From: Aeromicrobium duanguangcaii
GTDB lineage: Bacteria; Actinomycetota; Actinomycetes; Propionibacteriales; Nocardioidaceae
Length of the DNA stretch: 64,000 bases
Assembly (NCBI RefSeq): GCF_024508295.1
Contig: NZ_CP101990.1
Span: forward strand, 930,001-994,000
Reading direction: 5' to 3'
The position numbers were made by a program, and so were the translations under genes. Positions 15,333 to 22,686 of this stretch are shown here, in pieces. Under the pieces are notes generated by a model that did not search any database, was not told where the DNA came from, and saw only the letters and a program-made list of their open reading frames with translations. Positions within the stretch are counted from its first letter, which is position 1. Every line of letters begins with the position of its first letter.

Positions 15333-17192
<1,860 letters not shown>

Positions 17193-17229: not shown

Positions 17230-17292
17230 CCACTTTTGGAAGGGGATCCACGCAAGTTCGGTCGGAAAAGGTGGATCCGGTTCCAAAAGTGG
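17230..17292. repeat. Long imperfect hairpin A, downstream of lepA and the DUF559 gene
   Basis: Two 22-base arms (17230-17251 and 17271-17292) pair with 20 of 22 matches around a 19-base loop; each arm contains GGATCC next to TTTTGG/CCAAAA. The right part (17259-17292) matches hairpin B (18376-18409) at 30 of 34 positions in the same orientation. The element lies 16 bases from the stop of the DUF559 gene. It may terminate transcription, but there is no T run, and its near-copy on the other side of the gene suggests a repeat element rather than a plain terminator. Confidence 0.85.
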
Positions 17293-17307
17293 TCCCGTGG
17301 GCGCCCG

Positions 17308-18243
17308 CTAGCCCTTCGGGTTGCGGCTGAGCTCCTCGAGCGCCCACGGGACGAAGCGTGGCGGTGGACCGCTGTGGCCGCGTGAGACCAAAGCGCGCCA
17401 GACTCGACCGATCAGGCCGGCCGGGTGGTCCAGGTCGCCGGAGACGACCACGATCACGAGCCATCCGTCGGCCTCCAGCCCCTCCCGGCGCGCGATGTCC
17501 TTGCGCCGCTGCGCGGCCGTCCGCTCGTGGTACCAGCCGTCGTACTCGAGCACGATGCGGTGCCGCGGAAGCACGAGGTCGCCGCACCCGAGGTGTGCTC
17601 CGCGTGCATCGAAGATGTCGAGGTTGACCTCGAACTCCGGCAGGCCTGCGATCACGAGAAGCAGGCGCAGGTCGGTCTCGCGGAACGAGCGCACGCGGTC
17701 GCGCAGTAGTGCGAGGTTGGCACGAGATCGCCGGACGCCGTGGAGGTGTCGGGTCCACGCGTAGTGCGCGAAGCTCTCGGCAGTCATCTGTTCGGCGGCG
17801 ATCAGGGCATCTGCGTACCGCACGATGTCGCGGTGGCTGAGCATGATGGCCGCGTCCACGAGGCAGCGATGTGCCGGCAGGACGGGGACGCCGTCGATGT
17901 CCACGGGACGCAACGGCGCCTGACGGCGGTGCAGCGTGACCGAGCCCAGGCCGCGGCGGTTCGGCGTGTTCGTCGACCAGTGCCGCAGGCTCGTGTCGAC
18001 GTCGAGCCCGTGGAGCTGCAGCCCCGTCACGTGACTCACCGCGGCATCGCGGGGCAGGACCAGGAGGTCGGCCCGGAGCAGGAAGCGCAAGTCGCGGGAT
18101 TCCTGCGCCACCGCCCACACGCCGCGACCCGGGTGGATCGCCTCGAAGCGGCGTCCGTCGAGCATCCGTCGGGTCACACCGAGCGCGGCGGCCTCGCCGG
18201 TCGTGAACGGCCGCCCACGCAAGGACTCGGGGATCGGCCGCAC
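17308..18243 (-). CDS. DUF559 endonuclease-domain protein with AbiEi-like N-terminal helix-turn-helix
   Basis: A 311-residue protein. The first 60 residues (RPFTTGEAAALGVTRRML... and HPGRGVWAV) look like the winged helix at the N-terminus of AbiEi-type antitoxins. The middle has AVSHVTGLQLHGL. The C-terminal 100 residues carry the DUF559/Vsr-like nuclease core: LEYDGWYHERTAAQRRKD with its acidic D and following E, then LEADGWLVIVV. GTG 18243 is chosen because a GGAGGT ribosome-binding site lies 13-18 bases upstream and the conserved region begins there; the frame is open to 18465. It is flanked by related hairpins A and B and stands alone against the strand of its neighbours. No toxin partner is seen. 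Its role, in defence or as a mobile-element nuclease, is unproven. Confidence 0.8.
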   Translation of the reverse strand: MRPIPESLRGRPFTTGEAAALGVTRRMLDGRRFEAIHPGRGVWAVAQESRDLRFLLRADLLVLPRDAAVSHVTGLQLHGLDVDTSLRHWSTNTPNRRGLGSVTLHRRQAPLRPVDIDGVPVLPAHRCLVDAAIMLSHRDIVRYADALIAAEQMTAESFAHYAWTRHLHGVRRSRANLALLRDRVRSFRETDLRLLLVIAGLPEFEVNLDIFDARGAHLGCGDLVLPRHRIVLEYDGWYHERTAAQRRKDIARREGLEADGWLVIVVVSGDLDHPAGLIGRVWRALVSRGHSGPPPRFVPWALEELSRNPKG

Positions 18244-18345
18244 GAACCGAGCCTCGACCTCCGACGACGGGCGAACCAGCCCGCGCCCTGAGGCTGTGGA
18301 CAGCCAGCCCGCCCCCGCCGCGGGCGGGGAAGAGCCGCCAGCATT

Positions 18346-18410
18346 CCCACTTTTGGACCTCGTTTCACCTTTTCCCGGACGGAAAACGTGGATCGGCTTC
18401 CAAAAGTGGG
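18346..18410. repeat. Long imperfect hairpin B, upstream of the DUF559 gene
   Basis: Outer arms of 12 bases pair perfectly (18346-18357 with 18399-18410), and an inner TTTTCC/GGAAAA stem sits around CGGAC. It shares CCCACTTTTGGA at its left end and a 34-base right part (30 of 34 identical) with hairpin A. It lies 103 bases upstream of the DUF559 start, so it overlaps the region where that gene's promoter should be. Confidence 0.82.
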
Positions 18411-18516
18411 CAGGGGGCTGCGGAGCGCGGGCGCAGGCGCGGGCGGTGGGCGAGCGTTCACGCACGCTTCACCTGGATCTTGTTCCACGGTTCGCCGGGT
18501 CCGATTGCCTCGGACC

Positions 18517-20751
18517 ATGACTCACATCGGGGGACGAGCAGCCCGCAGCCTGCTCGCACTGACCACGACCGGTGCGCTCCTGGCCGGTACCGCCGCCGCG
18601 GCCCACGCCACACCGGAGCCGCGGCCGACGCAGCGCACGACCACCGTTCCCACGCTGGTCGCCCGCGCGACGCTGTCGGCCGACCACCTGGCTCCCGGCC
18701 CGCCGTCGGGAGCCAAGGCCACGGCGGCCAACGGCCGCACCGGACCGTTCGGTGGCCAGGTCGTCCCGGGTTTCTCGGCGATGATCGAGAACCGCGACGG
18801 CACGTTCTGGGCGTTGCCGGACAACGGCTTCGGGTCGAAGGCGAACTCGGCGGACTTCCTGCTGCGGATCTACCGGATCACGCCGCAGTGGGAGACCGCC
18901 CGCGGTGGGCCGGGACGGATCCGGCTCGACCGGTTCGTGTCCCTGCGTGACCCGCACCGCCGGGCGGGCTTCCCGATCGTCAACGAGGACACGAGGGAGC
19001 GCCTGCTGACGGGTGCGGACTTCGACGTCGAGTCGATCGTCCGGGCGAAGGACGGCAGTTTCTGGATCGGGGAGGAGTTCGGTCCGTTCCTGCTGCACGT
19101 CGACGCGAGCGGCGTGCTGCTCGAGGCTCCGGTGCCGCTGCCGGGCGTGCAGTCCCCGTCCCACCCGACTCCCGCCGGCACCGCGAACCTGCCGAACAGC
19201 AAGGGATTCGAGGCGATGGCCGCCAGCGCCGACGGCCGCTACCTGTACCCGATCCTCGAGGGGGCCCGGACCGACGACGCGCAGCCCAGGCGGCGCTGGA
19301 TCCACGAGTTCGACACCCGCGCGAAGCGTTACACCCCGCGTCGGTGGGCCTACGAGTCCGACACGGACGCCTCCCTGGTCGCGGACGCCTTCACGGTCGG
19401 CCGTCACGAGCTGCTGGTCGCGGAGCGTGACGACTTCGAGGGGGAGCAGGCGGTCGTCAAGCGGGTGTACCGGGTCGACCTGGACCGCCGCGACCGCGAC
19501 GGCTTCGTCCAGAAGGAGGTCGTGCTCGACGCGCTCAAGATCGCCAACCCCGCGCGGATCGGCGCCGGTGACGGATACGGCACGGGCGATCCGTTCTCGC
19601 TGCCGGTGCAGTCCTTCGAGACGATCGTGCAGCTGCGCGACGGGCGGCTGCTGATCGCCAACGACAACAACTTCCCCGGCAACGACGCCCGGGTCCCGGG
19701 CACGCCGGACGACACCGAGATCGCCGTCGTCGAGCTGCGGCGCCAGCACGTGCGCGGGAACGACGCGCTCGTGGTCGGGCACCGCGGGGCGTCCGGACAC
19801 CGGCCTGAGCACACGCTGGCCTCCTACGCCGAGGCGATCCGCCAGTGCGCGGACTACATCGAGCCCGACCTGGTCTCGACGAAGGACGGCGTCCTCGTGG
19901 CGCGGCACGAGAACGAGATCGGCGGCACCACGGACGTCGCCGGGCGGCCCGAGTTCGCCGGCCGGCGCACGACCCGGACGATCGACGGCCGCGCGGTCAC
20001 CGGCTGGTTCACCGAGGACTTCACCCTGGCCGAGCTGCGGACGCTGCGCGCGAAGGAGCGCATCCCGGCCCTGCGCCCCGCCAACACGGCCTTCGACGGG
20101 CTGTACCCGGTGCCGACGCTCGACGAGGTGCTCGACCTGGCCCGTCGCTCGCGTACCTGCGACGGCCGGCCGGTGGGGGTCTACCCCGAGACGAAGCACC
20201 CGACGTACTTCGACTCGATCGACCTCTCGCTCGAGGAGCCGCTGGTCGAGGGGCTGCGCCGCGCCGGGCTGGACCGGCCCGGCGCGCGGGTCGTGCTGCA
20301 GAGCTTCGAGACGCAGAACCTGCGCGAGCTCGACCGGCGGAGCGGGGCCCGCATCGTCCAGCTCGTCGACTGCACGGGCGCGCCGTACGACCTCGTGGCC
20401 ACCGGGGACCCGCGCACCTATGCCGACCTCGTCAGCCAGAAGGGCCTGCGGGCGATCAGCCGGTACGCCGACGGCGTCGGGCTGTGCAAGGACCGGATGA
20501 TCCCGCGCACCGCCGACGGGCGGCTGGGCCGACCGACGCGGGCAATCGCCGATGCGCACGCGGCGGGGCTGACGGTGCACGGATGGACGTTCCGCCGGGA
20601 GAACCAGTTCCTGCCCGTGGAGTTCCGCCGTGGTGCCGATCCGGCCGGGATCGGTGATCTGGCGGGGGAGATCCGGGCCTTCCTCGCGGTGGGGATGGAC
20701 GGGTTCTTCACCGACAACCCGGGGGCGGGGGCCGCGGCCGTCGGGCGCTGA
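18517..20751 (+). CDS. Secreted phytase-like esterase / glycerophosphodiester phosphodiesterase fusion
   Basis: A 744-residue exported protein. An N-terminal signal peptide (basic residues, then LLALTTTGALLAGTAAAAHA, likely cleaved after AHA near residue 34) is followed by an 'esterase-like activity of phytase' beta-propeller domain to about residue 415. A GDPD TIM-barrel domain follows, beginning VVGHRGASGHRPEHT, with IEPDLVSTKDGVLVARHE supplying the metal and catalytic acid/histidine residues. It should release phosphate or glycerol phosphate from phospholipid headgroups outside the cell. ATG 18517 is chosen because the signal peptide starts there; the longer frame runs into hairpin B. No phosphate-control box was recognised. 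Confidence 0.9.
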   Translation: MTHIGGRAARSLLALTTTGALLAGTAAAAHATPEPRPTQRTTTVPTLVARATLSADHLAPGPPSGAKATAANGRTGPFGGQVVPGFSAMIENRDGTFWALPDNGFGSKANSADFLLRIYRITPQWETARGGPGRIRLDRFVSLRDPHRRAGFPIVNEDTRERLLTGADFDVESIVRAKDGSFWIGEEFGPFLLHVDASGVLLEAPVPLPGVQSPSHPTPAGTANLPNSKGFEAMAASADGRYLYPILEGARTDDAQPRRRWIHEFDTRAKRYTPRRWAYESDTDASLVADAFTVGRHELLVAERDDFEGEQAVVKRVYRVDLDRRDRDGFVQKEVVLDALKIANPARIGAGDGYGTGDPFSLPVQSFETIVQLRDGRLLIANDNNFPGNDARVPGTPDDTEIAVVELRRQHVRGNDALVVGHRGASGHRPEHTLASYAEAIRQCADYIEPDLVSTKDGVLVARHENEIGGTTDVAGRPEFAGRRTTRTIDGRAVTGWFTEDFTLAELRTLRAKERIPALRPANTAFDGLYPVPTLDEVLDLARRSRTCDGRPVGVYPETKHPTYFDSIDLSLEEPLVEGLRRAGLDRPGARVVLQSFETQNLRELDRRSGARIVQLVDCTGAPYDLVATGDPRTYADLVSQKGLRAISRYADGVGLCKDRMIPRTADGRLGRPTRAIADAHAAGLTVHGWTFRRENQFLPVEFRRGADPAGIGDLAGEIRAFLAVGMDGFFTDNPGAGAAAVGR

Positions 20752-20850: not shown

Positions 20851-22686
20851 ATGGCAGTGTCCACCGCCGACCAGCTCGCGATCGTCGAGAACCGCGCCCG
20901 CAATGTGGGGGAGCTCTTCTACGGGCGGGTCGAGGCGTCCGGGCCGCGTGAGGCGTTCCGGTACCCCGACGCGAACGAGAACTGGATCTCGATGACGTGG
21001 AACGAGACGGGGGAGAAGGTCTCCAAGATCGCCGCCGGGCTCGTGGCCCTGGGCGTCGAGCCCGAACAGCGCGTCGCGATCGCCGCGGGCACCCGCATCG
21101 AGTGGATCCTCTCGGACCTCGCGGTGAACGTGGCCGGCGCGGCGACGACCACCGTCTACCCGACGTCGAGCACCGACGACGTCGCCTACATCCTGTCCGA
21201 CTCCGACAGCCGCATCGTGTTCGCCGAGGACGACGAGCAGGTCGCGAAGCTGCGCGAGAAGCGCTCCGAGCTGCCCAGCGTCTCGCGTGTCGTCATCTAC
21301 GAGGGCGAGGCCGACGGCGACTGGGTGATCTCGCTCGACGACCTGATCGCGCTCGGCGAGAAGTACCTGCTCGACCACCCCGACATCCTGCGCGAGCGCG
21401 TCGCGGGCACCGAGCCGGAGTCGCTCGCCACCTTGATCTACACGTCGGGCACCACCGGCCGCCCCAAGGGCGTGCGCCTGGTCCACGACTGCTGGACGTT
21501 CGAGGGCGCCGCCGTCGCCGCCCCGGGCTCGCTGTCCGAGAGCGACCTCGAGTACCGCTGGCTCCCGATGGCGCACTCCTTCGGCAAGGTGCTGCTGACC
21601 GCCCAGCTGACGATCGGCTACCCGTGCGCCGTCGACGGCCGCGTGCCCAAGATCGTCGACAACCTCGCCGTCGTCCGCCCCACGTTCATGGGCGCGGCCC
21701 CGCGCATCTTCGAGAAGGCCTACGGCCGCGTCGTCGGCATGATGGTCGAGGAGGGCGGCGCGAAGCTCAAGCTGTTCCGCTGGGCCGAGAAGGTCGGTCT
21801 GCAGGTCTCGCGCCTCCAGCGCGCCGGCAAGCCGATCCCGGTCGGGCTCAAGATTCAGCACCGCATCGCCGACAAGCTGGTCTTCAGCAAGATCCGCGAT
21901 CGCTTCGGCGGGCGCGTGCGCTTCTTCATCTCCGGCGCCGCGGCGCTGTCGACCGAGATCGCCGAGTGGTTCCACGCCGCCGGCGTGCTCGTCATGGAGG
22001 GCTACGGCCTGACCGAGACGTCGGCCGGCGCGTTCGTGAACGACCCCGACGACTTCAAGATCGGCACGGTCGGCCGGGCGTTCCCGGGCACCGAGGCCAA
22101 GATCGCCGCCGACGGCGAGGTCATGATCAAGGGCCCCAACGTCATGCGCGGCTACCACAACCTCGAGGGTGAGTCGGCCTCCGCGCTGACCGAGGACGGC
22201 TGGCTCGCCACCGGTGACATCGGCGAGTTCGACGCCGACGGCTTCCTGCGCATCACCGACCGCAAGAAGGACCTGTTCAAGACCTCCGGCGGCAAGTACG
22301 TGGCCCCCTCGCACGTCGAGGGCACGTTCAAGGCCGTCTGCCCGCTGGCCAGCCAGATGGTCGTCCACGGCAACGACCGCAACTTCTGCTCGGCCCTGAT
22401 CACGCTCGACCCGGACGCGGCCGAGGCCTGGGCCGAGAGCCACGGCATGGCCGGTGCGACCTACGCCGAGATCGCCGCGTCGGACCAGATGCTGGCCGAG
22501 ATGGCCGGGTACATCGACGAGCTCAACTCGCGGCTCAACCGCTGGGAGACGATCAAGAAGTGGGCCCTGCTCGACCACGACCTGTCCATCGAGTCCGGTG
22601 AGATCACCCCGAGCATGAAGGTCAAGCGCCGCGTCGTCGAGGAGCGCAACGCCGACCTGCTCAACAGCTTCTACGTCGAGGCCTGA
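20851..22686 (+). CDS. Long-chain fatty-acid--CoA ligase (FadD15-like)
   Basis: A 611-residue ANL-superfamily enzyme making acyl-CoA from fatty acid, ATP and CoA. The P-loop YTSGTTGRPKGVRL lies near residue 196, the adenylate motif MEGYGLTETSAG mid-protein, and the hinge TGDIGEFDADGFLRITDRKKD and SGGKYVAP segment before the C-terminal lid. The protein is of the long-chain type and similar in length to mycobacterial FadD15. A TAGGGT -10 box at 20800-20805 gives a leader of about 40 bases with a GGGAGAA ribosome-binding site. Substrate chain length is inferred from family only. Confidence 0.94.
   Translation: MAVSTADQLAIVENRARNVGELFYGRVEASGPREAFRYPDANENWISMTWNETGEKVSKIAAGLVALGVEPEQRVAIAAGTRIEWILSDLAVNVAGAATTTVYPTSSTDDVAYILSDSDSRIVFAEDDEQVAKLREKRSELPSVSRVVIYEGEADGDWVISLDDLIALGEKYLLDHPDILRERVAGTEPESLATLIYTSGTTGRPKGVRLVHDCWTFEGAAVAAPGSLSESDLEYRWLPMAHSFGKVLLTAQLTIGYPCAVDGRVPKIVDNLAVVRPTFMGAAPRIFEKAYGRVVGMMVEEGGAKLKLFRWAEKVGLQVSRLQRAGKPIPVGLKIQHRIADKLVFSKIRDRFGGRVRFFISGAAALSTEIAEWFHAAGVLVMEGYGLTETSAGAFVNDPDDFKIGTVGRAFPGTEAKIAADGEVMIKGPNVMRGYHNLEGESASALTEDGWLATGDIGEFDADGFLRITDRKKDLFKTSGGKYVAPSHVEGTFKAVCPLASQMVVHGNDRNFCSALITLDPDAAEAWAESHGMAGATYAEIAASDQMLAEMAGYIDELNSRLNRWETIKKWALLDHDLSIESGEITPSMKVKRRVVEERNADLLNSFYVEA

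Follow-up and report, generated by a model that had tools for sequence, protein, structure and literature searches.

A DUF559 nuclease-like gene and its dispersed palindromes in Aeromicrobium: a candidate REP-like system with a non-HUH nuclease

The locus described here raises the question of whether two related long hairpins, found on either side of a lone DUF559 nuclease-like gene of Aeromicrobium duanguangcaii, are partners of that gene, and if so in what kind of system. The window in which they lie is a 64,000-nt stretch of contig NZ_CP101990.1, for which the original prediction, made from its letters alone, had proposed a hairpin-associated mobile or selfish unit or a defence cassette. 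We consider it rather probable that gene and palindromes belong together as a single system, similar to a REPtron or a homing unit but with a nuclease that is not of the HUH type. In the open-access literature searched, no publication connects a DUF559 gene with palindromes.

The lepA locus and its DUF559 protein

The locus comprises the following features (window coordinates).

15333–17192, plus strand: lepA, the left neighbour, whose stop codon bounds the variable site on the left.
17230–17292, no strand: hairpin A, a 63-bp palindrome with 24-bp arms and a 15-nt spacer, on the 3' side of the DUF559 gene.
17308–18243, minus strand: the DUF559 gene (~311 aa), an AbiEi-like DNA-binding module with an EDxHD/Vsr-fold nuclease domain; inferred start, GTG at 18243.
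18347–18409, no strand: hairpin B, a 63-bp palindrome of hairpin A's family, on the 5' side of the DUF559 gene.
18517–20751, plus strand: a phytase-like and glycerophosphodiester phosphodiesterase (GDPD) gene, the right neighbour, absent from the locus in genome G003.
20851–22686, plus strand: a predicted acyl-CoA synthetase, named from sequence, which adjoins lepA directly in relatives lacking the cassette.

Both hairpins are real, with exactly 63 nt, 24-bp arms and a 15-nt spacer each, and as originally described they have TCCCACTTTTGGA and a 34-nt stretch with 30 identical positions in common, the minus-strand gene standing alone between them. The coordinates first given for A hold, whereas those for B (18346–18410) were one base too wide on each side. 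Over the full 63 nt, 46 positions match between A and B, and the window holds 4 occurrences of the arm TTCCAAAAGTGG at ≤1 mismatch, against 0.01 expected. Hairpin A begins 37 bp from the lepA stop codon and lies just past the stop of the DUF559 gene, while hairpin B lies ~103 bp upstream of its likely start; the long open reading frame at 17308–18465 extends through hairpin B, the likely start being instead the GTG at 18243. Beside hairpin A, a second inverted repeat (window 17292–17352; arms of 16 nt, 94%) reaches into the 3' end of the gene.

The encoded protein appears to join a DNA-binding module of AbiEi type to an EDxHD (I-Bth0305I/Vsr-fold) nuclease. Its DUF559 Pfam match is marginal (20.9 bits, cut-off 20.6), and both halves of the earlier assignment, an AbiEi-like N-terminus and a Vsr-like C-terminus, have support: PADLOC returns AbiEi with E 2.1e-8 across 150 residues, and the C-terminal domain matches I-Bth0305I (3r3p) in Foldseek with E 0.16, probability 0.99 and a TM score of 0.78 by target length, a weak match being found at sequence level too. 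AlphaFold2 models the whole protein with a pLDDT of 94. The AbiEi Pfam models match just 3–5 of 63 relatives of the window protein, and Foldseek with its N-terminal part did not retrieve AbiEi. Across 63 proteins the catalytic-type residues D226, E237 and H243 are invariant, while D239 and D253 are almost invariant. The paired inverted repeats bound by AbiEi and Rv2827c are 23 bp long, lie 3 or 13 bp apart and adjoin their own gene (PMC7319586), which makes 49 or 59 bp in total, and I-Bth0305I forms a dimer on nearly 60 bp of target DNA (PMC3943268). Relatives of both modules thus act on paired or dimeric sites of ~50–60 bp, and by analogy a dimer bound to the 24-15-24 palindrome as double-stranded DNA would fit. 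A phage origin of the protein was rejected, with no match to it among 50,697 phage records and one weak locus in viral contigs.

A dispersed palindrome family and its association with DUF559 genes

Hairpins A and B are members of a dispersed palindrome family, R1. An 11-base arm is present at 21 places in the 3.13-Mb genome (reversed control: none), and an R1 covariance model finds 14 copies in this genome (G000). Since A and B are 2 of these 14, most of their 34-nt match consists of the arm common to the family. The remaining 12 are solo, at the 3' ends of genes and in one case in frame within an open reading frame, which corrects the original prediction. The R1 consensus reads CCACTTTTGGAAACGGATCCACGT, 15 bases, ACGTGGATCCGTTTCCAAAAGTGG; its ends, as read off individual copies, are CCACTTTTGG and CCAAAAGTGG, beyond which the flanks vary. 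A reading in terms of RNA structure was set aside as unsupported, pairing in the first 12 copies being not above that of shuffles. R1 matches, as a rule two per copy, one on either strand, occur in 8 of 49 Aeromicrobium genomes (G003, ~28 copies; G008, 24; G045, 23–24; G016, 13–14; G013, 12; G019 and G022, few and weaker) and, family-wide, in 8 of 342 genomes, one of them from another genus. G013 and G045 retain their 12 and ~24 copies without a cognate gene, so that upkeep of R1 needs no continuous presence of that gene. The in-frame copy (L036:6590–6652, that is G000:C1:2934910–2934972) adds ~21 residues to a 585-aa open reading frame on the minus strand (L036:6238–7995), and a palindrome copy likewise lies inside the G016 orthologue of this frame and inside one in G008 (L211). 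One exact partial-arm match was seen in a Verrucomicrobia MAG (L046, VHCG01000031.1), with ~0.5 expected by chance by our estimate for the size of the collection.

Of 49 Aeromicrobium genomes 46 contain DUF559 relatives, in many cases several of them, and 47 of 70 such loci have a strong palindrome beside the gene. In the 5' flank, where the copy stands roughly 60–130 bp ahead of the gene start, palindromes accompany 36 of 72 DUF559 genes against 2 of 137 control genes; in the 3' flank the corresponding counts, 19 of 71 and 18 of 137, do not place DUF559 genes clearly above the controls. Because the control genes came from fewer genomes than the DUF559 loci, a second control was placed inside the loci themselves: strong palindromes number 1.61 per kb in the 5' flank and 1.53 in the 3' flank, against 0.045 in the rest of the loci and 0.22 in other intergenic DNA. 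Where a gene has palindromes on both sides their arms match in 12 of 12 cases (permutation p 2e-4), and a wider test finds a family-matched 3' copy for 16 of 45 genes, with a null of 1%. Protein identity correlates with arm similarity (Mantel r 0.35, p 5e-4), a correlation inflated by the inclusion of genes from one orthologous locus. Ten DUF559 loci from different genomes (L093, L094, L096, L097, L103, L104, L240, L246, L249 and L251) and the flank of L291 have common flanking sequence and different palindromes; the ten are probably a single old locus at which gene and palindrome co-diverge. Elsewhere in the genome of the window (L037, G000:C1 near 1007286 and 1010466–1010530) a strong palindrome stands 5' of the DUF559 gene at 1009535, and a second, related palindrome (GAGATTTGCTC..) lies ~2.2 kb from that gene.

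Two further families repeat the arrangement. R2, modelled on one solo copy together with the palindromes of two DUF559 genes, picks out a gene flanked by its copies on both sides in G022, G009 and G033, and R3, modelled on the palindrome pairs of two DUF559 genes, does likewise in G022 and G019. Both families have solo copies besides. Two R3-type palindromes surround a truncated DUF559 remnant at G046:C5:98928–99625 (L312, L321). Weak R3 matches in the genome of the window (L313 and L329, at G000:C1:434744 and 2233138, and L038) look like members of a third family (GAGATCTGTAGCG..CGCTACACATCTC) and are similar to the palindrome located 3' of that genome's own DUF559 gene at 2419841. Palindromes also flank each of the three plasmid-borne relatives in Arthrobacter, which belongs to the order Micrococcales, with a match between the two sides in two cases, and two Arthrobacter palindromes searched against 72,556 plasmid records match only replicons of the same strain, at 11 and 8 places. 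The association of hairpin and nuclease first proposed for a single locus is strongly supported across the genus and in another order, and the partnership of gene and palindrome is well supported.

Solo copies, filled sites and empty sites

Solo copies mostly lie within ~45 bp past stop codons. Among 91 R1 copies, 41 have convergent and 42 have tandem neighbours, 7 fall within called genes, 1 is at an edge and none lies between divergent genes, whereas 13 of 65 background gaps are divergent. The gene caller missed the DUF559 gene in three genomes, and the lepA copies form an exception to the pattern, because hairpin B there truly sits between divergent genes. In the R2/R3 set 31 solo copies are convergent, 12 tandem and none divergent.

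The R1 sites are old and inherited, with losses. A blastn test yields 24 groups of sites orthologous across species (the lepA group merging A and B), and between the two closest genomes orthologous copies differ at 2 of 288 positions in the outer arms (0.7%), 13 of 288 in the inner arms (4.5%) and 20 of 180 in the spacers (11%); the palindrome arms are under constraint. Inner arms at different sites of one genome are slightly more alike than copies across genomes (0.738 against 0.695; with G016 left out the difference is 0.046, p 5e-4), which is a sign of concerted evolution, the similarity among other species' orthologues (0.730) being about equal to the within-genome value. An apparent recent gain of solo hairpins was rejected: two copies that the sister genome G016 lacks exist in G045 and G008, and G016 has therefore most likely lost them.

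Empty lepA sites, for which the original prediction proposed a search in sister strains, do exist in relatives. G000, G016, G008 and G003 carry the hairpin-DUF559-hairpin block, while G013, G045 and G004 have neither block nor hairpin; on the tree ((((G013,G003),G045),G008),(G004,(G016,G000))) this is compatible with a single gain and three losses, or with several gains. With the cassette in four species and lacking in three close relatives, recent mobility at lepA is unproven. At a homologous intergenic site, the same convergent gene pair encloses a solo hairpin in G022 and a hairpin-DUF559-hairpin unit of another family in G041, with breakpoints near the stop codons. A further pair contrasts ~80 bp with a solo hairpin in G019 with a nearly closed gap in G024; both comparisons are unpolarised in direction. 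No clear target-site duplication was seen at the filled and empty sites compared, and in several comparisons the difference exceeds the hairpin alone.

Competing explanations and known systems

The palindrome might be mainly an operator at which an AbiEi-like autorepressor controls its own gene, the solo copies being terminators or minor sites. Known AbiEi proteins do autoregulate through their paired 23-bp repeats (PMC7319586), and the positions of the 5' copy ahead of the gene and of the solo copies past stop codons agree with this; we nevertheless judge it unlikely, given that divergent, promoter-bearing regions hold 0 of 83 (R1) and 0 of 43 (R2/R3 set) classified solo copies, that a gene-matched 3' copy is common, that the nuclease residues are invariant and that gene and palindromes were exchanged as a block at the G022/G041 site. 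Gene-specific matching arms on both sides already contradict a chance framing of the gene by ordinary bidirectional terminators, and with the 5' flank excess, the co-divergence of protein and arm and the strain-restricted families this reading becomes very hard to credit, even though solo copies sit at 3' ends and control genes often have 3' palindromes.

If the palindromes were non-autonomous elements moved by another enzyme and sharing with DUF559 genes a preference for intergenic sites, one would understand why G013 and G045 keep solo copies without a cognate gene and why neither target-site duplication nor a clear transposition product was seen. One family per DUF559 lineage and the matched pairs would be left unexplained, however, and a search of the genome of the window for the HUH Y1 transposase (Y1_Tnp, PF01797) gave 0 matches, so that we hold this to be improbable. 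We give as little credence to a defence nuclease for which the palindromes in the host genome would serve docking, inhibition or self-marking: the PADLOC match to AbiEi and the occurrence of Vsr-type nuclease domains in conflict-system proteins (PMC3710099) speak for it, but no toxin, methyltransferase or other defence gene lies directly beside the gene, and the phage records hold no match to the protein. Nothing specific came to light in favour of the defence cassette originally offered as an alternative.

Our preferred reading remains that of one system of DUF559 gene and palindromes. In the scheme of binding, cutting and copying or transfer that we infer, two copies of the protein, each with a two-part AbiEi-like module, would occupy the two 24-bp arms of the double-stranded 63-bp palindrome, with their EDxHD (I-Bth0305I-like) nuclease domains working in or near the 15-bp spacer. 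Every DUF559 lineage carries a distinct arm sequence. The gene usually lies beside, and often between, its own palindrome copies, the others persisting solo in intergenic 3'-end positions like REPs around RAYT. Repair of a broken or nicked palindrome from another copy may homogenise the arms, and the same repair could bring a hairpin-gene-hairpin unit into a site or shrink such a unit to a solo copy. Against this reading count the R1 copies that G013 and G045 keep in the absence of the cognate gene, the missing target-site duplication, the filled and empty sites that differ by more than a hairpin, the two possible histories of the lepA cassette, the failure of Foldseek to retrieve AbiEi, the 3' flanks that taken alone do not clearly surpass control flanks, and the orthologous locus included in the co-divergence test. 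Tentatively, actinobacterial DUF559/AbiEi genes could make up a large group of REP-like systems, selfish or domesticated, that has so far gone unrecognised and in which a dimeric endonuclease would recognise its own ~60-bp dispersed double-stranded palindrome and spread or homogenise it by cutting and repair. The pairing with palindromes gives the numerous, little-studied DUF559 genes a candidate substrate, suggests an independent origin of REP-like systems from a non-HUH nuclease, and provides many natural protein/target pairs of differing specificity for studying the recognition of long palindromic sites.

Rickettsia palindromic elements likewise occur in frame inside coding genes, as does the copy in L036, but this holds for just 1 of 14 copies in the genome of the window, and we know of no partner nuclease gene for the Rickettsia elements. 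In comparison with a classical insertion sequence, genomes do hold several DUF559 genes, which are mutually divergent rather than identical copies, and no clear target-site duplication was seen. AbiEi/Rv2827c antitoxins are similar in sequence over the DNA-binding part and have paired 23-bp inverted repeats beside their own gene (PMC7319586); the DUF559 protein differs in its extra nuclease domain and in the dispersal of its sites at 3' ends, and no AbiEii-type nucleotidyltransferase toxin lies beside the window gene, whose neighbours are lepA and the phytase/GDPD gene. I-Bth0305I, the closest solved fold of the C-terminal domain and a dimer on nearly 60 bp (PMC3943268), is encoded by a phage intron-type gene, whereas DUF559 genes adjoin an intact site or lie between two of them, and many further sites stand solo in the genome. 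The window gene stands between two intact intergenic palindromes, neither interrupting its own target nor residing in an intron. The DNA-binding part of I-Bth0305I is not known to be AbiEi-like.

RAYT genes are flanked by REPs, and solo REPs lie near 3' ends (PMC3733652, PMC8266576). REPtrons (RAYT/TnpA-REP with REP/REPIN) thus have in common with the DUF559 system a single-copy nuclease gene, palindromic flanks, gene-specific families and solo intergenic copies near 3' ends (PMC3733652, PMC8266576, PMC3116915). Of the REP/RAYT analogy drawn at the outset the logic stands and the HUH partner does not: with Y1_Tnp unmatched in the genome, a RAYT partner was rejected, and no GTAG or CGTC tag was found at the hairpin base in the R1 copies examined. 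The DUF559 nuclease is of the EDxHD/Vsr fold rather than HUH, and its palindromes measure ~50–75 bp, usually 57–66, with a spacer of ~15 nt, against 20–40 bp for REPs; they number ~5–28 copies where counted and are likely double-stranded dimer sites. The DUF559 system is REPtron-like in its working, yet it is no REPtron.
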